NCBI RefSeq assembly: GCF_003665155.1
Contig: NZ_RCFQ01000022.1
Coordinates: 1-47,859 of the forward strand
DNA from: Mariprofundus sp. EBB-1
GTDB taxonomy: Bacteria > Pseudomonadota > Zetaproteobacteria > Mariprofundales > Mariprofundaceae
Direction: 5' to 3'
DNA length: 47,859 nucleotides
Shown: positions 25,801 through 46,003 of the stretch, one piece after another
Numbering within the stretch: position 1 is the first letter of the stretch
Layout of the letters: every line of letters starts with the position of its first letter
Program-made: the position numbers and the translations under genes
Notes under the pieces: generated by a model
Seen by the model: only the letters and a program-made list of their open reading frames with translations
Databases searched by the model: none
Told to the model about the DNA's origin: nothing

Positions 25801-26357
25801 TTAAATAACACTCCATCGCGATGTTCTTTTTGTCCTGTTGAGCTTTGAACAGCCCAGCGGGCATATGCAGCTGCTTTATTCAGTGCTTTTGTATTGTTGT
25901 CTTTATCCGGCAGCCAGCCCATGACATGCGTGGCAAAAGCCAGCTCAGTAAATGTCTCGGCAAACATGGCGCTGAGTTCATCGGCAATCTGGGCTGCTTG
26001 CTTATCATCAATGATATCGTCATCGGTCTGTTTGTTCAGGCGCTGTACGAACTGTTTTTTGCACTGATATAGTGGAGACAATTGTCGTTGTTTCTCAGCC
26101 ATTTGTTTGATGTCGCTATCAATATTAAACAGTGCTGCGATAAAGGTCTCAAGCTGTGGAGCCAGTTCAATCAACAGGGCAGATTCACTTTTCTTATCAA
26201 GAGAAGAAGGATTGGATCGGGCGGCAAAGAAACGATTCGCAAGATCTGAATGTTGAGTCTTAAGCAGCTCGATAAACAGCGCATCAATACGGTTCAAGCC
26301 TTTGCTATGATACAGGTCCATAAAATCCAGATCGTGTTTCAGATGCAGTTCATGCAA
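22866..26357 (-). CDS. Large fused flavoprotein: Cys-rich domain, GltD/NfnB-like, FNR/NfnA-like
   Basis: 1163 residues in three parts. Residues 1-240 are helical and unrecognised. A Cys-rich segment (C242, C245, C253, C277, C303, C317, C320, C324) precedes a GltD/NfnB-like domain with FAD motif GLGPAG at 383-388 and NAD(P) motif GGGLTA at 561-566. From about 840 comes a ferredoxin-reductase domain (FQPGQFYRL, GGGLGNAVLFS) ending in a [2Fe-2S] set C1091, C1097, C1100, C1119 as in NfnA. It is therefore an NfnB-NfnA-like fusion that may exchange electrons between ferredoxin and NAD(P)H, and it faces korAB. CIWCH at 242-246 resembles a heme c site but no export signal exists. Confidence 0.85.
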   Translation of the reverse strand: MHELHLKHDLDFMDLYHSKGLNRIDALFIELLKTQHSDLANRFFAARSNPSSLDKKSESALLIELAPQLETFIAALFNIDSDIKQMAEKQRQLSPLYQCKKQFVQRLNKQTDDDIIDDKQAAQIADELSAMFAETFTELAFATHVMGWLPDKDNNTKALNKAAAYARWAVQSSTGQKEHRDGVLFKPAKSVNPLDLVPVQHSEINATDTMQGLDETLRLREGFKLTDHGADLNKALDQSNYCIWCHKQGRDSCSTGLKDKKSDQFKNSPFDVPLAGCPLQEKISEMNLLASNGQSLGALAMACVDNPIVAATGHRICNDCIKSCIYQKQEPVNIPHIESRMLKEVLNLPWGFEIYSLLTRWNPLNLRRPLPKAASGYKVLIAGLGPAGFTLAHHLMNEGHGIVAVDGLKIEPLPVEIAGSRKAEQRINFKPIRNISDLNESLDDRIMAGFGGVTEYGITVRWDKNYLKIIRLLLERRDQFAMYGGVRLGSTITFDEAFDMGFDHIALCLGAGAPTVISIPNGMARGVRQASDFLMALQLTGAAKASSIANLQIRLPIVVIGGGLTAIDTATEALAYYPVQVEKFLSRYETLVSESSEKHVRAAWGEEERIIADEYLEHARAIRSEHQKASAEAREPDILKLLNSWGGSTIAYRRRLIDAPSYILNHEEINKAMQEGIRFCELLSPTSIDIDQYGHSKAIILQRTHLNEDGKLETSNESVCLPARSILVAAGTKPNTVLAQEYPDQFNMDGKYFQAVDHNGQPVTPERSAKPEQAQMFTHIRQDNRAISFFGDLHPSFAGNVVKAMASATQGYTSINRMLKKRAPTPALASEIMELLNHELQAHVHAVHRMTPNIVEVIVRAPRAARNFQPGQFYRLQNYEVNARRVDGTVLAMEGVALTGAEVDVEEGLISLILLEMGGSSDLCAHLEPGEPVVLMGPTGCPSEITSNENVLLIGGGLGNAVLFSIGSAFKKSGSKVLYFAGYKHLIDRFKVPEIEAASDQIVWVCDEFPGFEPGREQDITFTGNMLEALEAYGKGELGETEMPLDSIDRIIVIGSAGLMRVISDARHGLLKPYLKPDHIGIGSINSPMQCMMKKICGQCLQPHKDAKTGKENGVVFSCFNQDQLLDEVDFQALMQRLGQQSVQEKLTRQWIDRSLRQLGLRQ

Positions 26358-32119: not shown

Positions 32120-34243
32120 TCAGGATGTGCTGTTGAAGCAGTTGGATACTACCTCTTGAAAGTGATCGATGAGATATGGTTTCTGAATAAAACCGGTCAG
32201 TCCCTTGCCTTTAAAGCGCGCAGTAGCATCTTCGGCGCTGTAGCCGGATGAGAGAATCACCCTGATGTCCGGTTTTATGTTGTGCAACGCGTTGTAACAC
32301 TCTTCACCATTCATATGCGGCATGGTCATATCAAGCAGTACACCGGTGATACGGTGTTGGTGCTGGCGAAAACATGCAACACCATCCCGACCATCGACAG
32401 CGGTGATCACTTCAAAGCCCATCTCTTCGAGTATCATGCTGGCCAGTTCACGGATGGTTTCTTCATCATCAATAACAAGGATCAGACCAGAGGATGAGAC
32501 TATCTGAGCTTTGCTGGTCGGTTCACTCTGCTTGGGTGATTCGGTTATGGGTAAGGCGATTTTAAATGTTGTGCCCTTGTCGGGTTCAGAATAGAGCTTG
32601 AGCAAGCCGTGATGACCATGCACGATGCCCAGTACTGCGCTCATACCCAAGCCTCGACCTGTAAATTTGGTGGTGAAAAAAGGATCAAAGATTTTCTTTT
32701 TGGTGTCGGCATCCATGCCGCAGCCGGAATCAGACACTTCCAGATAGACAAAACGGCCAGTAGAAATGTCCGGTTTATGGATTGAGCTGTTTAGACAGAG
32801 CTCATCAACCTGCATAATCCCCGTTGCTACCACGATGACACCACTCTGTTTGAGCATGGCTTCAGAGGCATTGATGACCAGATTCATGAGCACTTGCTGT
32901 ATCTGGGTGATATCAGCGTCAACCATTGGCAGTGTTGTAGAGAGATCACATTTCAATATCACGCTTTTGTCGATGGAGACTTCCAGCAGGGAGTGCATCT
33001 CTTCAACAAGCGTGGAAAGGTTGACCGGCTTAATAATAAAATCGCCTTTACCTGAATATGCTAGCATTTGCTTGCACAGGTTGGCGGCTTGAAGGCTGGA
33101 TTGCTCGATTCTCTGCAGGTATTCCTGTCCGGGTGAATAAGTGTCTATTTTGCGCTTGGCTATGCCGGTATTGCCAATGATAGCGGTAAGGATGTTGTTG
33201 AAATCATGCGCGATGCCACCGGCCAATACTCCCATGGATTCCAGTCTGTCCACATGCTCCATCTGTTGTTGTAAGGCGATTTCCCGACGCAGGTCTCGTG
33301 CAATAACAGCTAGACGGTTCGGGTTTCCATGCGTGTCGGGTAACGACATGAATGTGCAGGCGGCGGGAATACTATTGCTTTGCTGATCGATGAATTCACA
33401 TGCGGATTCATAAACGCCCTGTTTGATGGTTTGTGGAAAAATACGTTCTTGCAGCAGTTGATATGTTTCAGGGCTATGGAATGCATCGACTGTCATGTCA
33501 TCCACTGCCTGCTCCTGATCCAGACCTGTCATGTTTCTGCCTGCCGGGTTGATGTAGAGCACATGCCCCTGCAAGTCAGCGATGCCTACAAAATTCAGCG
33601 TGGCTTCAATGATTGAGGCCAGGTCCCTGACTTCACCAGTGCGTGCTTCTACCAGATCTTCCAGATCGGCATGCGATTTCCGCAAGGCTTGCTCGGCAGC
33701 TTTGCGCTCGCTTATATCGCGCAGAACCATGGCATAGGCCAGCGTGTCCCCCTGTTGTACGACCGAACCGACAAACTCGACAGGGAGCTCTGTGCCATCT
33801 TTGCATTGCGCAAGGCCTTCAACCCTCTGGTTCATTAAGGCACCACGGCCGCGTGCTAAATGACGATGAAAATAATTCAGGCTGGTGGCATGTAGATGTT
33901 TGGGGATGAGGATGTCTTCAAGCCGTTGATCGATGACTTCCTGCTCACTGAAGCCAAACATTTGCTCAGCCATAGGGTTCCATGATTTGATATATCCATC
34001 ATGATCCAGGCGAATGATGGCATCCATAGCATTTTGAACAATCAGTTCAAACCAGTTTTCAGCTTTTTCCAGTGCTTTGGATTTTTCTGCAATGCGCTGC
34101 TGGTAGGATTGCAGTTGTTTCTGGAACGGCAGTTGAGACGCATTGCTTTCCAACTGGCGCATGCGTTTGCTTAATGCTTTGATGGTTTCCTGTGCCGCAT
34201 CCAACTGTTTTTGCAATGTATCGGCTGTAGGTTTGTCGCTCAT
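32120..34243 (-). CDS. PAS-domain histidine kinase with C-terminal receiver
   Basis: A soluble 707-residue hybrid kinase. After a coiled-coil start (10-60) come a PAS domain at about 65-180 (NAMDAIIRLDHDGYIKSWNP), a second PAS at about 205-315, the phospho-acceptor H346 in GGIAHDFNNIL, a HATPase domain, and a receiver with D638 in LLDMTMP and K688 in IQKPY. The HDFNN type of H-box is typical of NtrB-like/HATPase_c hybrid kinases. I chose ATG 34243 because it overlaps the FIST stop (ATGA), so the pair is translationally coupled. The FIST protein probably supplies the signal. No DNA-binding output is adjacent. Confidence 0.9.
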   Translation of the reverse strand: MSDKPTADTLQKQLDAAQETIKALSKRMRQLESNASQLPFQKQLQSYQQRIAEKSKALEKAENWFELIVQNAMDAIIRLDHDGYIKSWNPMAEQMFGFSEQEVIDQRLEDILIPKHLHATSLNYFHRHLARGRGALMNQRVEGLAQCKDGTELPVEFVGSVVQQGDTLAYAMVLRDISERKAAEQALRKSHADLEDLVEARTGEVRDLASIIEATLNFVGIADLQGHVLYINPAGRNMTGLDQEQAVDDMTVDAFHSPETYQLLQERIFPQTIKQGVYESACEFIDQQSNSIPAACTFMSLPDTHGNPNRLAVIARDLRREIALQQQMEHVDRLESMGVLAGGIAHDFNNILTAIIGNTGIAKRKIDTYSPGQEYLQRIEQSSLQAANLCKQMLAYSGKGDFIIKPVNLSTLVEEMHSLLEVSIDKSVILKCDLSTTLPMVDADITQIQQVLMNLVINASEAMLKQSGVIVVATGIMQVDELCLNSSIHKPDISTGRFVYLEVSDSGCGMDADTKKKIFDPFFTTKFTGRGLGMSAVLGIVHGHHGLLKLYSEPDKGTTFKIALPITESPKQSEPTSKAQIVSSSGLILVIDDEETIRELASMILEEMGFEVITAVDGRDGVACFRQHQHRITGVLLDMTMPHMNGEECYNALHNIKPDIRVILSSGYSAEDATARFKGKGLTGFIQKPYLIDHFQEVVSNCFNSTS

Positions 34244-35376
34244 GCTGAACCCAACGCCAATGCGACCAGTGTCTGATTCACATGCAAGCCTTGCCATTGT
34301 TCGCCATAGGTATCAAAACCGATCACATGATTGCTTATGCTCATGGTTTTGTCTGCCAATAGTTGATTTATATTGGCATTACTACCTTCCAGTGCGCGGT
34401 AAATACAGTTACAGACCAAAAGCAGCTCTGCTTTACCTGCCTGTTGCTTAATCTCTGCGATGAACGTGTTGTATTCGTCAAGCATGTTCTGGTGTTTGCA
34501 CAAATTCAGCACCATGCCTTCTTCGATAGCGCAGCCGAATTTAAGTGCGTTATCTTCGCAAACTTGCCTGAGCGCACGCACATAACATTCATCGCCATAA
34601 GGGTAGGTCAGTGGATTGTCTGAAAATATCTGTGCGGTCAGATCATTTATTTCAAGGCCGAGTAATTGGGCATAACGCTCGGCGGCGGGTATTCCATCAA
34701 GTCGATATACCAGCCGTTTATCGACATCCGCTTTGGTAATCACCACATCCATGTCACCGGGCATATAATGCTGATGTTTGATGGCGTGAAATGGAACCCT
34801 GCTCTCTGCCAGAATAAACAGTGCTGCATGCTGATACGCTTTGCCATTGGCAATCACAAAGGCGTGCTCAAATTTGAGATCATCGCCGGCTGAGCCACCG
34901 AGCAAAGGAATATCTCCCAATTCATTGGCCATGGCTGCGATCACAGGCTCTTCGCGCGTACTCAGTCCATCGAAGATACTCAGACAAAAAAAGCGTTCGG
35001 GGTTGAGTTCACTCCATGCGATATCCAGCTGGGTTAACATCGTGTTGCATGCTGATTTAGCACTCTCGTCAGCAGAATCGTTGAGGTTCTCAATCACTGC
35101 ACTAGCCCAGCGAATATCAGGTGTTGAGACGCCTGAGAGTACCAGTGAACTGTTTTTATGTTGACCACTTATCCATTCCCCGGCTGTTGTGCCGCCGACG
35201 ATTAATGTGTTCGGGAAGCGTGTGTGAAGTGCTGCAGCAACGTCGGGTGAATGCTGGGTTGAAGAGTGAAACACAAACAGGATGTCGGGCGACACAGCAT
35301 CAGCCCAGTGCCCTGTCGCTTCAACAATAGCATCGAATGCATCCGGATTACTTGAAGAACCTTCAACGATTTGCAT
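34240..35376 (-). CDS. FIST sensor-domain protein
   Basis: The 378-residue protein consists of FIST N (about 25-220, with FPNTLIVGGTTAGEWISG and LGDIPLLGGSAGDD) and FIST C (about 220-360, with LTYPYGDECYVRAL and ELLLVCNCIYRAL). FIST domains are proposed small-ligand sensors, possibly for amino acids, and are usually linked to signalling proteins. Here the coupling is to a downstream hybrid kinase by an ATGA overlap. No membrane segment is present, so it acts in the cytoplasm. The GVST and CIYR parts are intact. Confidence 0.92.
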   Translation of the reverse strand: MQIVEGSSSNPDAFDAIVEATGHWADAVSPDILFVFHSSTQHSPDVAAALHTRFPNTLIVGGTTAGEWISGQHKNSSLVLSGVSTPDIRWASAVIENLNDSADESAKSACNTMLTQLDIAWSELNPERFFCLSIFDGLSTREEPVIAAMANELGDIPLLGGSAGDDLKFEHAFVIANGKAYQHAALFILAESRVPFHAIKHQHYMPGDMDVVITKADVDKRLVYRLDGIPAAERYAQLLGLEINDLTAQIFSDNPLTYPYGDECYVRALRQVCEDNALKFGCAIEEGMVLNLCKHQNMLDEYNTFIAEIKQQAGKAELLLVCNCIYRALEGSNANINQLLADKTMSISNHVIGFDTYGEQWQGLHVNQTLVALALGSA

Positions 35377-35575
35377 GCTTTAATCCTCCACCCGCATTGA
35401 TGAGTTTAGCATACGGTAGCGTCTGTTGTAACAGAAATAAATCAGCATCCCCCTGCATAAGGCCATAAAAAAGCTGATGGGGTTTGAATGATGTAGTAGG
35501 AATCAATGCCTTATTTAAACGATTATAGGGAATTGATGGTTGATCTATAACGCTGCGTTGTGGTGTTGGTAAATG

Positions 35576-35821
35576 CTAGGTCATTATACGCAGTGCGAAG
35601 TAGGGAACAATATTGAAGACAATGACGGCAATCTTGAATTGCGCCAGGTATTGAAAATATGCTTGTGACAGGTCTGATTCTGCCATGCTGAACATACTGG
35701 CGTGCATGCGTGCAATGGGTTGGCGAAATAGCATGATACATATCGCTGAGATTCCTAAAACCCCAATATTGATGACACTACACCAGCCAAAAAATACTCT
35801 TAACATATCGAGAGTGATCAC
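35576..35821 (-). CDS. Small membrane protein, DUF6868-like
   Basis: The 81-residue protein has two hydrophobic helices: about 15-33 (VINIGVLGISAICIMLF) and 61-78 (KIAVIVFNIVPYFALRIM). The pattern of a short polar start with FFGWC, a middle MHASMFSMAESDLSQAYFQYL, and a final NIVPYxALxI matches what I recall of DUF6868 proteins. Function is unknown. It sits 7 bases after the VF530 gene and probably shares its transcript. Confidence 0.75.
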   Translation of the reverse strand: MITLDMLRVFFGWCSVINIGVLGISAICIMLFRQPIARMHASMFSMAESDLSQAYFQYLAQFKIAVIVFNIVPYFALRIMT

Positions 35822-35828
35822 GGGGCTG

Positions 35829-36098
35829 TTAATCTCTGTTTGGCCAAGGCGATTTTTTTTCGGAGGGCTCTTTCTCTCTTAGCATTTCGAGGTATAAATT
35901 TTCTACCTTTGTTCTGGCCCAAGGGGTTTTGCGTAGAAACTTCAGACTGGATTTCACTGATGGATCACTATTGAAACAGCGGATCCTGACGTAGATACCC
36001 AGCTCGCCCCAGCCATAATGCTCAACCAGGTCGGTGATCATTTTTTCAAGAGTAATGCCATGCAGAGGATTGTTGATTTGCGTTTGTTTGTCAGACAT
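35829..36098 (-). CDS. VF530 family protein (DUF2132)
   Basis: An 89-residue protein matching the VF530/DUF2132 family: [20 protein letters not shown] near the start, then [25 protein letters not shown]. The family is small, widespread in gammaproteobacteria, and has been proposed to bind DNA; the function is not established. The C-terminal tail is Lys/Glu-rich. Followed by the DUF6868-like gene after 7 bases. Confidence 0.9.
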
Positions 36099-36158
36099 GG
36101 GGCAAACCTATGCAAGGCTTAACAAATAGTAAAAGGAGAGAGGTGAATATGAACGTCT

Positions 36159-38876
36159 TCATGTTTCATGGTCATCAGGCAAGGTGATGGCGTTCAAGTC
36201 AGCCAGAGCCGCATCAAAATCATAAGCGGCGAGATGCTGGCGTAAGCATGATATATGCTGCGTATTGCTATCCCCAAGTGCTACGCTGAGCTCATCCAGT
36301 AGATCCACCGCATCGCCATCATAATCTTCTAATAACAGACGCATCTGATCGATAAGGTTGTTGACTGTATAACGATCCACACTCTTCTCGTGTCTTTGAT
36401 CTTCTGGTGCTACCGTCGCACATAGGCCACTTAAACTTTCAGTAATCGTTGAAAGTTGCATTTCAGCCGTTGCCCAGATGTTGTCATCAATGGGTTCCCC
36501 TGTTGATAAGGCCGACTCCAGCGTTGCGATCTGTTGCATCAGTACTTTGGCGCCTATATTGCCTGCAAGTCCTTTCAGTATATGTGCAATGGACCCTGCC
36601 GAGGCATAATCATCAGCTGCCACAGCAACTTGCATGCGTTGTATGCTATCGCCTTGTGAATCACGGAAGCTGCACAATATTTGTCGATATAGTTGTTTGT
36701 CGTCTGCCAGTCGCTGTAAACCATCATCAATATCTATGCCCTGCAGAGCAGAAAAATCAATATCGTCAGGCTGCGTGTTGCTGGCAGCAGAGGCTGAGAG
36801 ATCAATTTCATTCGACGATGAATGCGTGATCCATCGCGCTAATGTGTTGTACAATATGCCCGGGTCAATGGGTTTGGATATGTGATCATTCATGCCTGCA
36901 TCAATACATGCTTGTTGATCAGCACTCATGGCATTGGCTGTCATGGCAATGATTGGTAGTTGAGCAAAAGCACTATCTGCACGAATCAGGCGCGTAGCTG
37001 TCAGGCCATCCATGACCGGCATCTGCATATCCATTAACACAGCATCAAATGCTTTGGCTTTGACTGCGCCCACGGCCTGTTTGCCATTATGAACGATGTG
37101 CAGATTCACACCGGCCTTACTTAATAGTCCATCGGCAACTTGTTGGTTGATCTCATTGTCTTCCACCAGCAACACATGCGCACCTTGTAGTGCTTGCATG
37201 TTGTTTGATGGAGTGCTGTTGCCAGCGGTGAATAGTGCTCTGGCATTGGCATCACCGAGCCCAAAGTGAATATCAAACTGGAAACTACTGCCTTGATCAG
37301 GGGCGCTTTCTACAGTGAACTCTCCCTGCATTAAGTTTACCATCTGCTTGCAAATAGCCAGCCCTAAACCTGTTCCACCATAATTGCGTGTGGTTGATGC
37401 ATCGGCTTGTCTGAAGGCTTCAAACAGATGTGCCATCTGCTCTTCAGACATACCAATACCGGAGTCTGAAATGTTGAAGCGGAGGTCGATGCCCGTATCA
37501 TTTTGTTGGATCGGCGATATTTTTATTTGTACATATCCTGTTTGCGTGAATTTTACGGCGTTGCTGACCAGGTTGAGCAGCACTTGACCCAGCCTCAGGG
37601 AATCACCATGCAGCATGGGGATATCAGCCGGCACATCCACGATAAACTCAAGTCCTTTTTGGTGAGCCTGTATTGCGGCCACGCTATCGACATGATCCAG
37701 CGTCTCCTGCAGATAAAAATCGGCCGGATCCAACTCCATTTTTCCTGCTTCGACCTTGGAGAAATCGAGAATATCGTTGATGATTTGCAATAGGTTTTCT
37801 GAAGCGGTGAGTATTTTATCAAGATATTGGCGTTGTGAACTGTCTGTGGCGCCATCTCTGGCCAGATGCGTCATGCCGATCACAGCATTCATAGGGGTGC
37901 GGATTTCATGGCTCATATTGGCCAGGAAATCACTTTTTGTGCGTGTCGCCGCCAGCGCTTTGTCGCGCGCTTCGGCTAGCTCACGGGTGCGTTTTTCAAC
38001 TTTATCTTCCAGTGTGTGGCTGTGCTCTTCGAGTTGTGCATAAGAGTGTTTGAGTGACTCGGCCATGTCTTCAAGGGATGCTGCCAGCAGGCCAATTTCA
38101 TCATCGTTACGGCTGCTGATATGGGCGGTAGCGGAAAAGTCACCATTGGCCAGTTTGTGCGAAAAATGGACGAGCTTTTGAATAGGGTCTGTCCATCGGC
38201 GGGCAAAATAATATACTCCGAAGGCTCCTAAAATAAGAAACAATAATGATGTCACAGAGGCTCTGGTTAAAGCTGCTGCAATGGCAGCATGATTGCGTAA
38301 ACGGGATGTAGCCAGGTTTTCATTTAACTCATCGACAGAGAACCCCAGACGAACGACGCCCCATTGTTTCTGATTAACCATAATGGGAACAACGCTTTCC
38401 ATAAAAGCATGATTACCAACTGTGAAGTCATGATGCATGGTCTCTGTTTGCATGGCGGCAAAGGCTGATATCTCACCTGAGAGGATGTATTCACGAAGAG
38501 CAGAATCAACCAGGTCACTGCCGATGGCTGATTTGGCTTTTTCACCCTCTACCAGGATAACATATTTCAGGTCATCAATGTCCTTAATAACATTGTTAAT
38601 GTATGTATCAGTAAGACGAATACGGTAGGTTGAAACGAGTCTTTCGATCTGAAGTGACATTTTCTTACTGGCTTTACTCGCTTTCTTATGCACCTGCTCT
38701 TGCAAGAAAGAGCTATGTGCAGCCAGTGCATTGTTAAGGCTGTCTTTTTGTGCAGAGACTTGCAGGACGGTCAACATTACAATCATGGCCATAATAATCC
38801 CGACCATGGCCACCATCATGTGCCAGCGCATGCCGCGCTTTATGCTTAGCTGAGGTACAATTTCCTTATCGGGCAT
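36159..38876 (-). CDS. BarA-type hybrid histidine kinase (HAMP, kinase, receiver, HPt)
   Basis: A 905-residue inner-membrane sensor. Membrane helices lie at about 20-42 and 207-225, enclosing a 165-residue periplasmic sensor region. After it come HAMP (about 226-280), a coiled linker, the phospho-acceptor H323 in NMSHEIRTPM, HATPase with GGTGLGLAI, a receiver (VLLVEDNEIN, MDMQMPVMDG, ISKPID) and an HPt with H765 in AHILKGLAG. A helical tail of about 140 residues follows. The layout is BarA/ArcB-like, expecting an unlinked response regulator. It starts 39 bases after the TPR gene, so it may belong to the upstream cluster. Confidence 0.93.
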   Translation of the reverse strand: MPDKEIVPQLSIKRGMRWHMMVAMVGIIMAMIVMLTVLQVSAQKDSLNNALAAHSSFLQEQVHKKASKASKKMSLQIERLVSTYRIRLTDTYINNVIKDIDDLKYVILVEGEKAKSAIGSDLVDSALREYILSGEISAFAAMQTETMHHDFTVGNHAFMESVVPIMVNQKQWGVVRLGFSVDELNENLATSRLRNHAAIAAALTRASVTSLLFLILGAFGVYYFARRWTDPIQKLVHFSHKLANGDFSATAHISSRNDDEIGLLAASLEDMAESLKHSYAQLEEHSHTLEDKVEKRTRELAEARDKALAATRTKSDFLANMSHEIRTPMNAVIGMTHLARDGATDSSQRQYLDKILTASENLLQIINDILDFSKVEAGKMELDPADFYLQETLDHVDSVAAIQAHQKGLEFIVDVPADIPMLHGDSLRLGQVLLNLVSNAVKFTQTGYVQIKISPIQQNDTGIDLRFNISDSGIGMSEEQMAHLFEAFRQADASTTRNYGGTGLGLAICKQMVNLMQGEFTVESAPDQGSSFQFDIHFGLGDANARALFTAGNSTPSNNMQALQGAHVLLVEDNEINQQVADGLLSKAGVNLHIVHNGKQAVGAVKAKAFDAVLMDMQMPVMDGLTATRLIRADSAFAQLPIIAMTANAMSADQQACIDAGMNDHISKPIDPGILYNTLARWITHSSSNEIDLSASAASNTQPDDIDFSALQGIDIDDGLQRLADDKQLYRQILCSFRDSQGDSIQRMQVAVAADDYASAGSIAHILKGLAGNIGAKVLMQQIATLESALSTGEPIDDNIWATAEMQLSTITESLSGLCATVAPEDQRHEKSVDRYTVNNLIDQMRLLLEDYDGDAVDLLDELSVALGDSNTQHISCLRQHLAAYDFDAALADLNAITLPDDHET

Positions 38877-38915: not shown

Positions 38916-39536
38916 TTACGATTTTAAATAACGGATAGCTTCAAGATTTTCGGGGTATCGTACAAGTACGCGTTTATAGGCTTCCTGGGCCTCTATCTTT
39001 TTGCCTTGCCAGGCATAAGCTCGGGCTAGATACACAATTGCTGTGGCGTCAGTAGGATAGTTAGCACTGACTTCTTTGGCGTGTTTCTCAAGTGTTTCCC
39101 AGTTACGCAAACCCTCTTCACACACCATTAAACGCACATGGGCGGTGTAATTTAGGGGGGAGAGCCCGATAATCTGTTTCAGATAATTCATCGCACTGCT
39201 CCAGCGTCGTTGTGCCATCAGCGGCAAGGCGATACCTAAGCGTGCATCTATTGAGCGATTGTTTCTATCCAGTGCGCGCTGGTACGATTGAATGGAGTCA
39301 TTGAAATTGCCTTGCAGATAATTGAGCCAGCCATACCGAATCAGTGCAAATTCATTTTCATCGCTATTGTCGGTAAATGGATAGATGACTGAAGCGGCTT
39401 TTTCATACTCACCATTTGCCTCCAGTGTGTAGGAGGTGCTCCATGGGCTTTTTGTTTCAGCGCCGTTAACGACGGATGTAAAACCGATTAGTGCAAACAT
39501 CATCGATGTGATTGGAAGCCATTTATTCTTTAACAT
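38916..39536 (-). CDS. Secreted TPR-repeat protein
   Basis: About 206 residues from the ATG at 39536, chosen because AAGGAGAG lies 5 bases upstream; the open frame goes back to 39566. It starts with a signal peptide (PITSMMFALIGFTSVVNGAE). The mature part is mostly TPR repeats (GWLNYLQGNFNDSIQSYQRA, YLARAYAWQGKKIEAQEAYK) and ends ENLEAIRYLKS. A periplasmic adaptor next to an outer-membrane barrel and a transporter fits an envelope role, but no substrate is known. No lipobox Cys is visible at the cleavage site. Confidence 0.88.
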   Translation of the reverse strand: MLKNKWLPITSMMFALIGFTSVVNGAETKSPWSTSYTLEANGEYEKAASVIYPFTDNSDENEFALIRYGWLNYLQGNFNDSIQSYQRALDRNNRSIDARLGIALPLMAQRRWSSAMNYLKQIIGLSPLNYTAHVRLMVCEEGLRNWETLEKHAKEVSANYPTDATAIVYLARAYAWQGKKIEAQEAYKRVLVRYPENLEAIRYLKS

Positions 39537-39559
39537 GATACTCTCCTTTAAATTCAATC

Positions 39560-40462
39560 TTACCATTGGCTGGATAGATTCAAATATCCATAACGATTAT
39601 TGTAAGAATCAGCAGTTGTATTATTTAAATAATTTTCATTACCAGCCATGAGCATCAAACTTACTGCTTGCGTTAACTTCCATTGTAAAGCCAGAGAAAC
39701 AGAACCTCGCTGGACATCCGTCAGGTTGTACACGGTGGCAGCGTCGTTATCGACAGCGTAAATGCGTTCACCTACAAGCCCGGATATTTTTATATTATTC
39801 AGCTTATGCCAGGCATCTGGAGCAAACCAATGCGTCCATTGGGCTTCTAAGGCGCTGGTGCTGCTTTTGTTTTGTGCGCGTAAAGCATTGGAGGGGGCTA
39901 TAACGTAGCCACGCAGACGAACCCAGTCGGCTGAATCGTTGAAGCCAAAACCAAGTGTTGGTGTGAACTGGTGTATTTTGAGGTTATTCTGATATATGGA
40001 ATAGGCATAACCGAAATCAGCATAAAAGGTTTTATTATAATTTAAAAATGAGAGTTGTGGCGCGACAACCCGAACATTATCTGTATTACCGCTGGTATCA
40101 TTATTGTTGATAGCGTGTCCATCCAGACGCAGTGTTATTGGCCCAGGTAAAACATCGAGATAGAGATTGTAGTGCAGGCTAGCGTAGTACGATTGTTGAT
40201 TGATGTCGGTGGTACCATTTCTAAATGCGAGTTTGGTATAACTGCTACCTAATGCAAAACCTCCCAGCTCAAGGTAATCTGCACTTAATATCAGACCGCC
40301 ACTGGCGATGGATTTCCGGGATAGGGCGCCGCTATAGCTACCATAGAGAGCTTGAAGGTCTGCTTTGGCTGACCAGTCACTTTCAGCAGCCAGTACAATG
40401 TGCTGAGCACATATCAGGCTGGCGATGAAAGCCATTACTCTTACGTTTCGCTGTATATGCAT
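39560..40462 (-). CDS. Outer-membrane beta-barrel protein
   Basis: A 300-residue protein with a signal peptide (RVMAFIASLICAQHIVLAAE) and alternating hydrophobic/polar strands with many Tyr, Asn and Gly. It ends in a C-terminal Trp (YLNLSSQW), the usual barrel signature. I do not recognise a family. It lies 63 bases after the transporter-peptidase gene and 23 bases before the TPR gene. It could let the cluster's product or substrate cross the outer membrane; that is inference from position. Confidence 0.82.
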   Translation of the reverse strand: MHIQRNVRVMAFIASLICAQHIVLAAESDWSAKADLQALYGSYSGALSRKSIASGGLILSADYLELGGFALGSSYTKLAFRNGTTDINQQSYYASLHYNLYLDVLPGPITLRLDGHAINNNDTSGNTDNVRVVAPQLSFLNYNKTFYADFGYAYSIYQNNLKIHQFTPTLGFGFNDSADWVRLRGYVIAPSNALRAQNKSSTSALEAQWTHWFAPDAWHKLNNIKISGLVGERIYAVDNDAATVYNLTDVQRGSVSLALQWKLTQAVSLMLMAGNENYLNNTTADSYNNRYGYLNLSSQW

Positions 40463-40525: not shown

Positions 40526-42697
40526 TCATGCTTTGATTTTCCAGGCCGGAATACCTGCATCTGCTTTTTGACCGACCTCCAGCAGTGTTGCCTGCAAGGT
40601 ACCTGTGTCACTTTTTATGCTAATACTTCTGCAGCCTATGCGCGGTTCAATAGTCACTATGGATTCAGCATGAATCTGCATCCCGAAAGCGAAGTTTAAA
40701 CGATGCTGACCGGATTGCTGCCAGAATTCACCATCCCATTGGCGTAAATATCGACTGTCGATACCAGTGCCCAAAGGGAATAGGCACTTGCCTACCCAGC
40801 GCTGCTTTGCAGTCATCGGTAATAGCTGCATTGAAGGTTGATCATGCCAAGATAGTTCACCATCTGTTAAGGGCATCAAACCCAGAGCTAAAAGCCATGC
40901 GTCTAAGAATGCATCGGCAGGCCCGGTTCGGTCATAAAATGCCAATAGATGATCTTGTGCAGTAAATGCTGCGCTGGCTCCGGAATCAGATGTTAAACGC
41001 AATTGCCCTGTCAGATTGAGTGTTACCGATAAACTCCTGTTGGCCGATTTGTTGTTGTGAATGACCTGATAACTGAATTCCCTGCCTACATTTAAGCGCA
41101 AACTTTCGACCAGTATCGGATCCATCTTGGGCATGGTTATGCGATCGCCTTCAACAGGGCGAGAAAAGAGCTTAAAGCGTGCTTGTTTGGGGGATGTGGC
41201 GTGCGGGTCATTGGATTGATGCAGTACAGTGGTCAGGTGGAATGGGTGAGTGGCTAAACCAAGTGTTTCCCCCCATTGTACATGCAAGTGTAAATGCGGT
41301 TGTGGCGAGCGGCCAGAGCTACCACATTCAGCCATCGGCTGACCGGCATAGAGATAAGCTCCGGCTTTCACACCGATGCTGCCTTGTTTGAGATGTGCAA
41401 CCAGAGCGCAGAGGCCATTGGACATGCGGATCAGCACATGATTACCCCAGTTGTTCTCCAGATCGACCTGGCCGGGGGCATTGTCCGGCAGGCTATCCAG
41501 CGTTTTTACAACATAACCAGCAACTGGAGAAAGCACGGGCAGTCCGAAACAGAAGTAGTCATTCAAACTGGCGCCATCGGTATGATAACTTTGTCCATTT
41601 TCGACAATATAAAAATCCAGTGCGTGTTGCCATGGTGCTTGATGGGTATGGGCACCATCAAAGCCCTGATAAACCTGCCAGCGCCCATAAAAAGGAGCTA
41701 ATACGGGTACACTGTTAAATTCACCGTGTCTTGCCATAGCTAGTCTGGCTCGCTCAGCGCTTTTTTCAGGCAGGGCAGGCGCATCAAGAATCAGTTGCAA
41801 GCTGTCGGAAGCGGGCCTGTGTGTAAGGGCGAGCAGAATCGTGAGTGTGGTGATGAGAAAGGGCAGTGCCATCACTGGCAAACCATAGACCAGCATGAAG
41901 GTTTCAGATGCAGAGGTGACAAGTGCTGCAATAACGGCTCCAACCATAGCCAATGCAAAACTTTGCAAACTTGGCACAGTGAAGACTCCACCGAGTGCTA
42001 TGGCGACAAGAATGAAATTAAATCCATTCCAGGCCACCAGATCAGGGTGTGGGCTACCTGATAGAAATGCATAGACAGAAAATCCGCATAAAAACCCTGC
42101 TATCGCCAGCACCGCCAGGTAGCGGGATGTGATGAGCAATCCTAAGAATAGTAATAGGCCGGCCACTGGGTGAGGGGTGAAGAAGGCCGATCCAAGGGCG
42201 GTGAGGAATTGATCAATAAAGGGTGAAATTAAACCGTCATTGGGTGCCAATGGAAGCAGGTAACGGCTCAAGGTGCCATAGCTGTGTGCGGCCAATGTCA
42301 CTGTCAGAGCAACAATGACAAAGGGTAGGCTTAATATGGGTAATCTGCCCAAACGCCACGCAATATCAGCCATGGCGACGGTGGCAAATACCGCCAATAC
42401 TGCCCCTAACGCAATCAACACAGCCAGGTGTAGGTCGAGCATGTAATATGCCCCCAGTGACAAACCAACTAGTAGGCTATTGTATACATGCAGGCCACTT
42501 TCAAGGTTTCTGAACTTGAGTAGTTTTGCCGTCATCATGCCTGTCATTGCAGCTAATAAACCGGAAAAGCCGGCATTGGGAAACCAGAATGTGGCGAGCA
42601 CAAACAGTGCCCCAATCCAGGGCCTAGGTGCAAAAAGAATTGCTCCGTAAGCCCTGAAAAGGCCTGCCAGTGTTTCTTTTAACGGGGTGAGAAACAA
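40526..42697 (-). CDS. Urea-transporter-like protein fused to an M23 peptidase domain
   Basis: 723 residues. Residues about 1-290 look like a urea-transporter (UT/SLC14-like) fold: SGLHVYNSLLVGLSLGAYYM at 67-86 and WNGFNFILVAIALGGVF at 223-239, plus other membrane helices. Residues about 325-490 are M23/LytM-like: H358-A-L-D361, VAHL with H435, and PHLHLHV with H468, H470 and H472. Residues about 495-723 are an unrecognised C-terminal domain. The start is a TTG 3 bases after the decarboxylase stop. Urea itself is not proven as substrate; no urease or arginase is nearby. Confidence 0.85.
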   Translation of the reverse strand: MFLTPLKETLAGLFRAYGAILFAPRPWIGALFVLATFWFPNAGFSGLLAAMTGMMTAKLLKFRNLESGLHVYNSLLVGLSLGAYYMLDLHLAVLIALGAVLAVFATVAMADIAWRLGRLPILSLPFVIVALTVTLAAHSYGTLSRYLLPLAPNDGLISPFIDQFLTALGSAFFTPHPVAGLLLFLGLLITSRYLAVLAIAGFLCGFSVYAFLSGSPHPDLVAWNGFNFILVAIALGGVFTVPSLQSFALAMVGAVIAALVTSASETFMLVYGLPVMALPFLITTLTILLALTHRPASDSLQLILDAPALPEKSAERARLAMARHGEFNSVPVLAPFYGRWQVYQGFDGAHTHQAPWQHALDFYIVENGQSYHTDGASLNDYFCFGLPVLSPVAGYVVKTLDSLPDNAPGQVDLENNWGNHVLIRMSNGLCALVAHLKQGSIGVKAGAYLYAGQPMAECGSSGRSPQPHLHLHVQWGETLGLATHPFHLTTVLHQSNDPHATSPKQARFKLFSRPVEGDRITMPKMDPILVESLRLNVGREFSYQVIHNNKSANRSLSVTLNLTGQLRLTSDSGASAAFTAQDHLLAFYDRTGPADAFLDAWLLALGLMPLTDGELSWHDQPSMQLLPMTAKQRWVGKCLFPLGTGIDSRYLRQWDGEFWQQSGQHRLNFAFGMQIHAESIVTIEPRIGCRSISIKSDTGTLQATLLEVGQKADAGIPAWKIKA

Positions 42698-42700
42698 GGC

Positions 42701-44119
42701 TTAAATATCCTGTTGTGTTTCAAGTGAGCAGAGGTGGGCAGGAATACTTTCCTGCGCGGTCATGACATGCAGATCTTCTGCTGCACGTACTATCGAAACT
42801 TGCTTGTCGGAATGTATCATGACCACATTGGGGCGGTACTCAATAAATTGCATCCACTGGGTATTATTATATGCACCGACATTACTGAAGATCATGGAGT
42901 CACCGACGTTCAATGGTGGTAGCAGTACCGATGCACGCATAATGTCGATATTCATACATAAAGGACCGTAGAGCACCGTGTCTTCTGCCACACCTTCGAG
43001 CTGGCGGGTTGGCGTAACCTGATGATTGTACCAGAAACCGGTGAACAGCAAATTGACACCTGCATCAATGACTACAGAGCGTCTGCCATCTGGCATGCGT
43101 TTGTTGGCCACAACCGATGAGACAAGAATTTCGGCATCATCAACCACCGCTCTACCACTTTCGATAATCAGACGTGGTCTGCCGCGCCCTTGCATATCAC
43201 GTTCTCTGGTTGCGTCATTCAAAGCTGTGCAAATAGCTTCTGCATATTGATCCATGCTTGGAACGACCTGTTCAGGTGGTAAATAAGTGCCCTGCAACGC
43301 ATTCATCGAGGCGAAACCACCGCCAATATCAATGCTTTCAATTTCACATCCTGTTTGCAGTTCTATCTTATCCATAAAAGCGCACATGATTCTAATCTGT
43401 GCACCATAGGCGCGTGGATCAAGAATGAATGTGCCCAGATGGCTATGCAAGCCACACAGATTCAAGTGTTTACTGTCCCCCAGGATACGTGCGGCATCAA
43501 GTGCTTGCCCTGACTCGATGTTAAAGCCAAAACGACTCCAGGGTTCTGTGAAACCGGTGTCGAAATTGAGCCGCATGGTAACGTCAACCTGCTTGCCTGC
43601 TTCTTTGGCAACGTCTTCTAACAGGTACAATTCATCAAGATGATCAATATGAATGCGTCCACCCTCAGCCACAACGCGCTCAAGAATAGGACGTTCTTTG
43701 TGAGGCCCATTGAAGAGAATTTTTTCTGCAGGCATGCCAAGCTGGCGTGCTTTTTCATATTCGAATGCTGAGACCACTTCCGCCCATGCACCTTCCTGAT
43801 GTAAGGTGTTGCAAACAGCGGCCAGATAATTGGTTTTATACGACCAGCTGTAGGTGACATTGGCATAACGTGTTTCAAAGGCTCTTAATAATTTACGTAC
43901 ATTGTTACGCAATCGTTGTTCTGACAGAACGAACAGCGGGGAACCATACTCTTCTATGAGAGATGCAATGGAAATAGCTTCAAAACTGTCCTGATAATGT
44001 CCTCCGCTCACACTGCCAAACTTATTCAGCGAACCGATACGGTGGGGGGTTAATGTCGGTTTATGCCACCTTTTTTTTGCGCTAGTGTCATCTGTAGGTT
44101 TTGTTTCATTGTTCATCAT
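42701..44119 (-). CDS. PLP-dependent decarboxylase, fold type III (Orn/DAP/Arg family)
   Basis: A 472-residue enzyme of the alanine-racemase/ornithine-diaminopimelate-arginine decarboxylase type. PLP Lys is K95 in WSYKTNY; LHSHLGT at 224-230, DIGGGFA at 264-270, and active-site GPLCMNID with C389 and D393 fit decarboxylases rather than racemases. An unusual 40-residue N-terminal extension precedes the barrel. The substrate cannot be told from sequence. Its start overlaps the ATP-grasp gene by 14 bases, so the two are translationally coupled. It may decarboxylate an amino acid before or after ligation. Confidence 0.9.
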   Translation of the reverse strand: MMNNETKPTDDTSAKKRWHKPTLTPHRIGSLNKFGSVSGGHYQDSFEAISIASLIEEYGSPLFVLSEQRLRNNVRKLLRAFETRYANVTYSWSYKTNYLAAVCNTLHQEGAWAEVVSAFEYEKARQLGMPAEKILFNGPHKERPILERVVAEGGRIHIDHLDELYLLEDVAKEAGKQVDVTMRLNFDTGFTEPWSRFGFNIESGQALDAARILGDSKHLNLCGLHSHLGTFILDPRAYGAQIRIMCAFMDKIELQTGCEIESIDIGGGFASMNALQGTYLPPEQVVPSMDQYAEAICTALNDATRERDMQGRGRPRLIIESGRAVVDDAEILVSSVVANKRMPDGRRSVVIDAGVNLLFTGFWYNHQVTPTRQLEGVAEDTVLYGPLCMNIDIMRASVLLPPLNVGDSMIFSNVGAYNNTQWMQFIEYRPNVVMIHSDKQVSIVRAAEDLHVMTAQESIPAHLCSLETQQDI

Positions 44120-45215
44120 TCAGCTCCTGCCCACGCTTCTGTTTAACATCTGCGGTATAACAACCATGCATTGCCATCGCTTCGAATGTATTCAAATCAA
44201 TGACGGTCTCTTTCGCATAACGAATCATCATCATGCCTGTTTTAGGTTTCTTGAATTCGGTTTTTTTAGCCATGACCAGATCCACTAAACCGGCTGGAAG
44301 GTTGCTGCCTGCTTCTGCAGCCAGGTAAATCCAGGCAGGAAATCGGGGATTGATTTCAATGAGCAGGTATTGTCCATCGCTCTCTTTGAGCATTTCCACT
44401 TCCAGTGGCCCAGCCCATTGCAGTGCCTGCACCAGTTTTAGTGCGTCATGTTCTAATTGTCTGTCTTCGATGGTGATGCAAGACCATGCTTTACCTTTAT
44501 CGGTAACGGCTTGTTTGCGCATCATGACAGCTCCGAGCAGTTCGCCTTTACCATCACCAACTGCAGTCAGATTAACTTCATGGCCTTCAACATAGCGTTG
44601 CACTAGCACTGGATAACCCCAGCTTGCAGCAACTTGTCTGAATGCAGCAGCCCCTTCATCAGCATTATTCACAATTGTGGCATCATAAAAAATGCCTTTC
44701 ACCACCATGGGGTAGGTCCAGTTATCATCATGGCAACGATAGAAAAAATCGGCGCTGGTGATGTTTTTTGTTTCCGGATAACGAATGCCTGCATTGCGTG
44801 CCAATTCACCCAGTCTGTCTTTATTGCGATCACGTAACTGGGCGACATCAGGAATGAGCATGCGAATACCCAGGTGTTCAAATTCTAGATGCAAACGACT
44901 AAAGCTTAATAATTCAGCATCCAGACATGGAATGAGTACATCAATAGTCTCTTGCTGCTGAATATAGTGCATACGATCCATCAGTTCCTGCTCACCAGCC
45001 GATGGGTAAGGCAACAAATAGGCTGCATCACAGAGTTCTTTCAGATAGAGGCCTGCATCAAGGACGTCGTAACCCAGCCCAATGATGCGCACATTATCCC
45101 CATGCGCTAAACGCAAACAGCGTGCTACAGCCAGTCCCGGCCCCGGGTTATCCGGCTTGGCATTCATACCTGTGACGGCGATGGTTATTTTATGGTTTGG
45201 GTTTGTTTGATTCAT
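44106..45215 (-). CDS. ATP-grasp ligase
   Basis: A 369-residue protein with a biotin-carboxylase/carbamoyl-phosphate-synthase-like ATP-grasp fold: preATP-grasp domain at 1-120 (AVTGMNAKPDNPGPGLAVAR), then K173 in VVKG, the adenine region VQRYVEGHEVN at 205-215, and the metal-binding EINPR at 287-291. Such enzymes activate a carboxylate with ATP and join it to an amine. Substrates are unknown; it is not a housekeeping carB or purK by length and context. ATGA overlap with the TetR-PqqD gene and 14-base overlap with the decarboxylase argue that all three act together. Confidence 0.88.
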   Translation of the reverse strand: MNQTNPNHKITIAVTGMNAKPDNPGPGLAVARCLRLAHGDNVRIIGLGYDVLDAGLYLKELCDAAYLLPYPSAGEQELMDRMHYIQQQETIDVLIPCLDAELLSFSRLHLEFEHLGIRMLIPDVAQLRDRNKDRLGELARNAGIRYPETKNITSADFFYRCHDDNWTYPMVVKGIFYDATIVNNADEGAAAFRQVAASWGYPVLVQRYVEGHEVNLTAVGDGKGELLGAVMMRKQAVTDKGKAWSCITIEDRQLEHDALKLVQALQWAGPLEVEMLKESDGQYLLIEINPRFPAWIYLAAEAGSNLPAGLVDLVMAKKTEFKKPKTGMMMIRYAKETVIDLNTFEAMAMHGCYTADVKQKRGQELNDEQ

Positions 45216-46003
45216 TGGAGAAATTTACGCAACTGGCTGGAGAATTCGGTGATATCACGTGCCGCATCGGATTGACTGACTTCAAAGTCACGTGAAATCG
45301 CTACGAGCAGGGCTTCTGCATCATTGCTGTGTTGCAGAAAGCGCAAGGCATAAATGCATGTTTCATTGGCGGTGAAGCTTTTTCCATTGACCGGATCAAA
45401 GACAAAGCCACTGTCATTCAAGGCTAGTCTCTGCATCACTTCAGGCGCTGGAAAGGTGGTATCGTTTGGTTTGTTCTTTTCCCATGGTAATTGACTCATA
45501 AGACGCTCCTTTTGCCTGTCCCGATCATTGTTGTCGGGATTCCAGGCACGATAAATCGATTGCATCAAATGATCGGTAAGTACATCTGATGTAATTCCTA
45601 TGGGTGTTGAACTCATCAATTCAATTCTAGTTTGTACGACGTTGACGAATTGAAGCCGACTTGCATCCAAAGCCTGACGCAAATATGGCGTATCCATTGG
45701 CTGGCAACACAAGAAACTTAACAGGGGATCCTGTTGAAGCAGTTGTTGTTGCAGATAGATCAGTCCACCTCGGCCGGCAGGCATTGCATCGAGTAATAGG
45801 CGTAATTGCTCTGCTCGTGTCTCTATCCAGGCCGTCAGCATGGCTTCTTTAGAAGAGAAGTGACGAAACAATACACCATCGGATATACCGGACTGCTGTG
45901 ATATCCGCTGCGTGGTTAAAAACGCCAGTTGATCCTTGGCTGCGATTACATCGATAGCCCTGAGCACCTGTTTCCAACGCGTTTGTGCGGTCTTTGTTTT
46001 CAC
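45212..46003 (-). CDS. TetR-family regulator fused to a PqqD-like domain
   Basis: The 263-residue protein has a TetR-type DNA-binding head at about 10-58 (LTTQRISQQSGISDGVLFRHF), a helical region to about 165, and a C-terminal PqqD/RRE-like domain at about 188-263 (GFVFDPVNGKSFTANETCIY, then helices with DFEVSQSDAARDITEF). PqqD domains are RiPP-recognition elements that bind peptides. TetR regulators usually bind a ligand with their middle domain; here a peptide-binding tail may be the sensor, or the RRE may recruit a partner. The gene is first in its operon and faces a perfect palindrome at 46074-46087. Confidence 0.85.
   Translation of the reverse strand: MKTKTAQTRWKQVLRAIDVIAAKDQLAFLTTQRISQQSGISDGVLFRHFSSKEAMLTAWIETRAEQLRLLLDAMPAGRGGLIYLQQQLLQQDPLLSFLCCQPMDTPYLRQALDASRLQFVNVVQTRIELMSSTPIGITSDVLTDHLMQSIYRAWNPDNNDRDRQKERLMSQLPWEKNKPNDTTFPAPEVMQRLALNDSGFVFDPVNGKSFTANETCIYALRFLQHSNDAEALLVAISRDFEVSQSDAARDITEFSSQLRKFLQ

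Follow-up and report, generated by a model that had tools for sequence, protein, structure and literature searches.

We analysed a stretch of 47,859 nucleotides from the genome of Mariprofundus sp. EBB-1 (contig NZ_RCFQ01000022.1; hereafter the window), in which one open reading frame on the reverse strand (40526..42697, stop included; TTG start, 723 aa) encodes a urea-transporter-like (UT) domain and an M23 metallopeptidase domain. The preliminary description of this DNA had proposed that UT-like motifs and an M23 metal site share one frame, and this is confirmed: Pfam, an AlphaFold2 model and conservation in 61 aligned relatives together identify a full UT domain and a complete M23 metal site. 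The pore domain, which has the urea-channel fold, covers residues 13-291 (41825..42661, reverse strand; Pfam PF03253 and VIA-align) and matches its family with an E-value of 7.5e-51 (173.5 bits against a cut-off of 25). The M23 domain (PF01551, conservation and VIA-align) extends structurally over approximately residues 330-492 (41222..41710, reverse strand), with a Pfam core at residues 385-476 (41270-41545, reverse strand; E 6.6e-11, 42.7 bits against a cut-off of 28.7). Residues ~500-723 (40529..41200, reverse strand) form a third, beta-rich region that is seen in the model (pLDDT ~75-95), can be aligned in distant relatives and has no Pfam match at E 1. Since UT-M23 is unbroken across many other genomes, it is neither a chance product nor an assembly join, both of which were ruled out by its recurrence in 61 proteins.

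The model of UT-M23 was built from the 15 sequences of alignment A1 (mean pLDDT 76, pTM 0.62), and the whole chain, C-terminal region included, served as query in structure searches. The UT half shows six helices per half, repeated, as in known UTs, and resembles dvUT (Foldseek E 1.1e-13, TM by target 0.83; VIA-align Z 33.2) as well as human UT-B, which is its best match among solved urea channels (VIA-align Z 34.2). By the same method the M23 half is closest to the LytM domain of DipM (Z 13.8, rmsd 6.0 over 138), followed by lysostaphin (Z 13.4) and LasA (Z 12.9). Against TIGR03441, the NCBIfam model of bacterial urea transporters, UT-M23 scores 108.2, far below the cut-off of 274.6, an early sign of a UT-fold protein other than a standard urea transporter.

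UT-M23 stands fourth in a row of six genes, all on the reverse strand, which overlap or are separated by no more than 63 bp. Upstream of it are genes for a TetR-type regulator that carries a PqqD domain at its C-terminus (45212..46003, 263 aa; Pfam TetR_N and PqqD), a CarB/PylC-like ATP-grasp ligase (44106..45215, 369 aa; Pfam ATPgrasp_Ter and ATP-grasp_3, over cut-off) and a FigC/LysA-like, PLP-dependent group IV decarboxylase (42701..44119, 472 aa; Pfam Orn_Arg_deC_N and Orn_DAP_Arg_deC). Downstream follow an OmpG-like outer-membrane beta-barrel (39560..40462, 300 aa), assigned with AlphaFold2 and Foldseek, and a TPR protein with a hydrophobic N-terminal segment (38916..39566, 216 aa; Pfam TPR families). 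In the AlphaFold2 model of the barrel (mean pLDDT 88.7), a signal-like helix precedes 14 predicted strands, and its best Foldseek matches are OmpG structures (E 5.7e-8, 11-12% identity). For the decarboxylase, the best PDB match is the N-citrylornithine decarboxylase FigC (7kh2, E 4.7e-51) and the best NCBIfam match is FslC (NF041039; 210.9 bits, below the cut-off of 500), while its score against LysA (TIGR01048) is 209.9 bits, below the cut-off of 297.9; it is 29% identical to the other LysA-like protein of the same genome. Next to the operon we noticed no gene for a carrier protein, for polyketide synthesis or for an NIS synthetase. Two hybrid/PAS-type sensor kinases and a FIST-like sensor reading frame adjoin it (32120-38876, reverse strand; PAS and FIST recognized by eye), and a kinase at that flank is conserved in the nearest relative, L032, though not in most others. 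Elsewhere in the window, a 1163-aa reading frame (22866-26357, reverse strand) appears by eye to be a fused flavin/NAD-dependent oxidoreductase.

Distribution and gene linkage

Among 78 genomes of the class, the window's own and 15 more carry full-length relatives (54-83% identity). Contig ends in G060, G012 and G031 yielded fragments, and G011 has a distant copy. The G011 copy (L050, on G011:C298) lies in a Mariprofundaceae bin and its start is identical to the Sulfurimonas record L087; it is probably stray contamination. A scan of genome contigs returned 52 loci, one of which, L103 from Bacillus, matches in the M23 part only; the 61 aligned proteins come from Pseudomonadota and Campylobacterota. 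The holders include Mariprofundaceae, Ghiorsea, Magnetococcales, Methylococcales, other Gammaproteobacteria and Candidatus Endoriftia, and in Campylobacterota Sulfurimonas, Sulfurovum and others. Of 398 genomes sampled across the phylum, 55 match UT; seven further families contain long UT frames.

In a tree computed from UT-domain columns only, by a quick search and with several long branches, a single branch (SH-aLRT 99) separates the 61 fused proteins from 16 stand-alone UTs; given this split, the simplest reading is that the fusion arose once. Partial or duplicate records (L069, L074, L077, L173, L090), the partial L101, the M23-only L103, fragments L047-L049 and L051, L052-L063 and L064, which are copies of records under G handles, and G108 (a 789-aa frame) lie outside the set of 61. 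It retains the truncated L091, L093 and L095 and the near-copies L066/L067, L098/L099, L143/L174 and L038/L042, so that our counts are of sequences and not of independent events. L040 and L042 belong to the 61 but not to the 15 rows of A1, whereas L050 is a row of A1 outside the 61.

Linkage was counted over 60 fused-UT loci, the window excluded. In 58 of these a decarboxylase gene directly precedes UT-M23 on the same strand, with a median gap of 37 bp between the matched stretches, and an ATP-grasp orthologue adjoins UT-M23 upstream in 54; four of the six loci without one end within 1.5 kb on that side. PqqD was found upstream by tblastn in 49/60 loci, and downstream the barrel is present in 46 and the TPR gene in 48. 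Where a locus has at least 3 kb upstream and at least 2.5 kb downstream, both enzymes and PqqD occur together in 38 of 40 cases. Seen from the ligase, 19 of the 78 class genomes carry the ATP-grasp orthologue, and in 18 of them UT-M23 follows in conserved order; in the nineteenth (G017), the contig ends inside the decarboxylase gene.

Two loci are real exceptions to the enzyme linkage, L146:6413-8527 and L147:6528-8615 (G119 and G140), in which UT-M23 and TPR genes have neither ATP-grasp nor decarboxylase genes nearby. Conversely, three loci (L175:592-3386, L176:3083-5644 and L177:7145-9939, in G131, G179 and G209) hold ATP-grasp and decarboxylase genes with no UT-M23 beside them, and tblastn detects PqqD in all three. 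Since each set is found without the other, the parts are separable, and the pattern of linkage suggests that the biosynthetic core is PqqD, ATP-grasp and decarboxylase, with UT-M23 as its usual partner. Pfam identifies a PqqD-like domain in the operons of L072 and L097 as well as in that of the window. It forms a separate protein of 86 aa in the first two and is joined to a TetR-type half in the third, which implies that the PqqD part matters to the pathway in its own right.

Several loci depart from this layout in other ways. The barrel and TPR genes of L151 and L153 lie upstream of the core instead, and in L143 (153-1839 and 6894-8812) and L144 two barrel/TPR sets flank the operon, one facing the opposite way. 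An asparagine-synthase-like gene is also part of the operon in L148 (5072-8329, reverse strand), L150 and L152, lineages that may represent an amide-forming variant of the pathway. L148 and L152 further encode a protein in which half a UT domain precedes TPR repeats and an additional hydrophobic region at the C-terminus.

The preliminary description had called the pairing of channel and peptidase unusual, and our literature search, which found no paper on a UT joined with M23, ATP-grasp or PqqD, agrees with it. In titles and the starts of abstracts we found no description of an operon of PqqD, ATP-grasp and decarboxylase either. As far as these searches show, the UT-M23 operon is a compact, conserved and undescribed marker.

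Pore residues and the question of urea

Filter positions were paired through a phmmer alignment of the window's UT domain to dvUT, in which we take Gln24 to be a urea filter site. The filter residues Glu187, Thr130 and Thr294 of dvUT were taken from PMC4357013, which also lists Q67 of UT-A2, a position with which dvUT Gln24 agrees. None of the four polar and Thr residues is retained in the window protein (Gln24 is replaced by A19, Glu187 by S170, Thr130 by S123 and Thr294 by A277) and Phe80 is replaced by Y72, whereas Phe27 (F22), Phe190 (F173), Leu84 (L76) and Leu247 (L230) are kept. At the Gln24 site the 61 fused proteins have A (21), S (28), T (6), N (3), W (2) or E (1) and never Gln, which is present in 16/16 stand-alone UTs. 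Glu or Gln occupies the Glu187 site in 4/61 fused proteins versus 15/16 stand-alone UTs; the Thr130 site is Ser in 61/61 versus Thr in 13/16, and the Thr294 site is divided among A (26), T (28) and S (7) versus T in 15/16. By contrast, the Leu84 site is Leu in all 61 fused proteins and the Phe190 site is Phe in 56. With the polar and Thr sites replaced and the hydrophobic and aromatic sites kept, the greasy slot of the channel is retained but not its hydrogen-bonding rim.

Gene content points the same way. Urease_alpha is encoded in 4/41 genomes with a fused UT, in each case on another contig (G099, G119, G140 and G149, the second and third being the genomes of the exceptional loci L146 and L147), versus 18/18 genomes with a stand-alone UT (Fisher p 1.4e-10, kinship ignored). 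The 41 include G011, the genome of L050, and the stand-alone UTs number 16 proteins versus 18 genomes because those of G293 and G351 were left unaligned, as was the partial UT of G269, a genome in which no Urease_alpha was found. The window's own genome (G000) has no urease alpha-subunit gene anywhere, which bears out one part of the earlier remark that urease, arginase and agmatinase are missing nearby; the other part does not extend to the genome, as an arginase/agmatinase-family gene lies on another contig (G000:C8:60202-60978). On that contig there is also a 640-aa frame (C8:46806-47216) weakly similar to the decarboxylase, possibly an arginine decarboxylase.

Because an agmatinase-family gene is present and urease absent, urea may form in this organism yet go unused, and UT-M23 could in principle be an ordinary channel for urea or waste urea, for example one that releases the urea made by agmatinase, with an incidental M23 tail. 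The Pfam match to UT is compatible with such a role. However, we consider it improbable, since the filter residues are altered, the gene sits in a tight operon with ATP-grasp and decarboxylase genes, and agmatinase-family genes occur in 3/20 class genomes with a UT-M23 match versus 23/58 without, the opposite of the link expected for a waste-urea channel. As a general role, release of agmatinase-derived urea was rejected on this lack of positive co-occurrence across the class. The doubt already voiced about urea as the substrate is therefore strengthened, and the urea-channel-like pore is probably no urea transporter.

The metal site and location of the M23 domain

H352, D361, H435, H468 and H470 are each kept in all 61 fused proteins of the alignment. 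From comparison with LytM-type enzymes, we assume that the zinc ligands would be H352, D361 and H470 and the catalytic residues H435 and H468. The preliminary description had singled out H470/H472 for mutation; H470 stands, but the HxH motif is H468-x-H470, and position 472 is His in 32 and Gln in 29 of the 61. The first metal pair is H352...D361, the adjoining H358 being ruled out as the first ligand as it varies (H 27, Y 32, F 2). Loss of the ligands in homologues, which would have spoken against a working site, was not seen. Relative to L032, the UT domain has a dN/dS of 0.04, M23 one of 0.057 and the C-terminal region one of 0.09; these ratios are only rough because dS is high (1.6-2.2; other pairs are saturated). 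Together with the invariant residues, these values show that the M23 domain is under constraint.

The fusion always holds M23 beside the inner face of the pore, and the best structural matches include EnvC and SpoIIQ, M23 relatives that do not cut. The domain could be a zinc-binding gate or scaffold, a regulated plug or a docking platform for PqqD, ATP-grasp and decarboxylase, in place of a peptidase. Non-cutting relatives usually lack some catalytic or metal residues, however, and in UT-M23 both catalytic His and all metal ligands are kept in 61/61 proteins, so that we regard this explanation as unlikely.

On which side of the membrane the M23 domain lies was assessed from loop charges, counted on the N-in/C-in layout of known UTs, both termini of which are cytoplasmic. 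Across the 61 fused proteins, the inner loops hold a mean of 7.90 Lys/Arg over 66 residues and the outer loops 1.08 over 56; the inner count exceeds the outer in every protein, also when both terminal segments are omitted, and the 16 stand-alone UTs have a similar pattern (8.75 versus 0.62). No membrane-spanning segment was found between residue 295 and residue 345 or the M23 core, where the highest 17-residue mean hydropathy is 1.32, in L146. Since an N-in/C-in UT is followed by no further membrane segment, the peptidase domain is most likely cytoplasmic, as predicted from the positive-inside rule and homology.

This placement bears on the earlier suggestion that M23 acts on the cell wall near the pore. 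Characterized M23 enzymes are mostly secreted peptidoglycan hydrolases, as are the best solved matches of this domain, which would favour a periplasmic hydrolase of the cell wall with the channel-like domain as its membrane anchor. Yet the extracytoplasmic location usual for such enzymes is contradicted by the charge pattern, from which the C-terminus is predicted to lie inside in 61/61 proteins, and a periplasmic M23 domain was rejected on those grounds, the stretch between residue 295 and the M23 core offering no membrane segment that could carry it across. Topology prediction, proposed earlier as a check, thus speaks against a cell-wall role, which we hold to be very improbable.

A possible make-and-export pathway and its relatives

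Our preferred reading, which is tentative, is that a UT-fold pore that has departed from urea transport and a cytoplasmic zinc M23 domain together form the inner-membrane part of an operon that makes and exports a small molecule. In such a pathway, the ATP-grasp ligase would couple a diamino acid, for instance ornithine, lysine or diaminopimelate, with a carboxylate, either an amino acid or a peptide that PqqD presents, and the FigC/LysA-like PLP enzyme would decarboxylate the conjugate to give an amine bearing an amide. M23 at the inner mouth of the pore would next remove the joined group or carrier peptide, whereupon the freed small molecule would cross the altered UT pore and be moved over the outer membrane by the OmpG-like barrel and TPR protein. 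From what we observed (the component genes and how they are linked, a metal site that is conserved and a filter that is altered) and from the predicted location of M23, we infer the step order, direction of export, cleavage and product. The earlier idea that M23 acts on the cluster's product, although putative, fits the operon.

Precedent for conjugation ahead of decarboxylation exists. FigC acts on the conjugate N-citrylornithine and not on ornithine (PMC7857480), and in the synthesis of vicenistatin and butirosin an aminoacyl protecting group is added and later removed by an amidohydrolase (PMC11284099). Since the decarboxylase is paired with a ligase, a rule of conjugating first and decarboxylating next fits the operon, even though the enzyme is not FigC by score. 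By analogy, an M23 peptidase on the cytoplasmic side of the pore would bring the removal of the protecting group to the exit. A stricter form of this idea, which we consider doubtful, is a deprotect-and-release exporter, in which the decarboxylated product would keep its ATP-grasp cap, or a carrier peptide presented by PqqD, until M23 removes it at the mouth of the channel.

Several observations weigh against make-and-export. The enzyme set and UT-M23 can be found apart, as in G131, G179, G209, G119 and G140, and the barrel and TPR genes accompany only part of the 60 loci. Judged from gap lengths only, the window operon leaves no room for a precursor-peptide gene between its members, as its intergenic gaps reach 63 bp at most and the upstream gap is 147 bp, although such a gene may lie farther away. 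To our knowledge, UT pores described so far pass only molecules about the size of urea, so either the product is small or the pore is wider.

Given that the UT fold is a passive channel, direction would be set by the gradient, and the same parts could serve uptake: the barrel, which is of porin type, and UT would import a small peptide-like or amide compound, the inner-side M23 could act as receiving enzyme, and ATP-grasp and decarboxylase would complete the processing inside. We think this an unlikely explanation, as the ATP-grasp ligase and a second, dedicated enzyme of LysA type, 29% identical to the first, look biosynthetic, and an intact peptide is, from general knowledge of UT channels, too large for the pore.

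If the make-and-export reading is correct, the UT fold, so far associated with urea and its close analogues only, has been turned to other cargo, with an M23 peptidase active at the cytoplasmic mouth of a channel. Were uncapping confined to the exit, the free product would never be present in the cell, and this would be a new coupling of transporter and enzyme as well as a new family of small molecules made by microaerophilic chemolithotrophs. As the operon occurs in Mariprofundaceae, which oxidize iron, and in Magnetococcales, Methylococcales, other Gammaproteobacteria (the tubeworm symbiont Endoriftia among them) and Sulfurimonas/Sulfurovum, what it makes may be important to low-oxygen communities of vents and sediments. 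Whatever the cargo, the filter residues provide a simple rule against annotating UT-M23 proteins as urea transporters.

Compared with the UT family (PF03253; dvUT, UT-A and UT-B), UT-M23 is alike in its whole-domain HMM match, its fold (Z 33-34) and the conserved hydrophobic and aromatic pore positions, but differs at the Gln24, Glu187 and Thr130 sites, in the missing link to urease and in 430 extra C-terminal residues that include M23. It resembles M23 peptidases (DipM/LytM/lysostaphin, LasA and beta-lytic protease) by HMM match and in fold (Z 12-14), and it has their metal ligands and their two catalytic His. It differs from them in its predicted cytoplasmic location, its fusion to a pore and the spacing of the first His and Asp, which are usually 4 residues apart and here 9 (H352 and D361), although LasA also has a wider spacing. 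The decarboxylase belongs to the fold family of FigC/FslC and LysA, among which are its best PDB and NCBIfam matches, but scores under both family cut-offs, so that neither function can be assigned to it. Pathways that conjugate, decarboxylate and deprotect offer a further comparison. One makes the butirosin side chain, with roles for BtrJ and BtrK, on which our literature search found no paper; PMC7857480 and PMC11284099 mention butirosin only in passing. In that pathway, as in those of vicenistatin and Francisella rhizoferrin, a ligase loads a group and a PLP enzyme decarboxylates the conjugate, and the operon appears to be built alike. In butirosin and vicenistatin synthesis an amidohydrolase later takes off the protecting group; what sets the UT-M23 operon apart from these pathways is that its putative cutting domain belongs to the pore.
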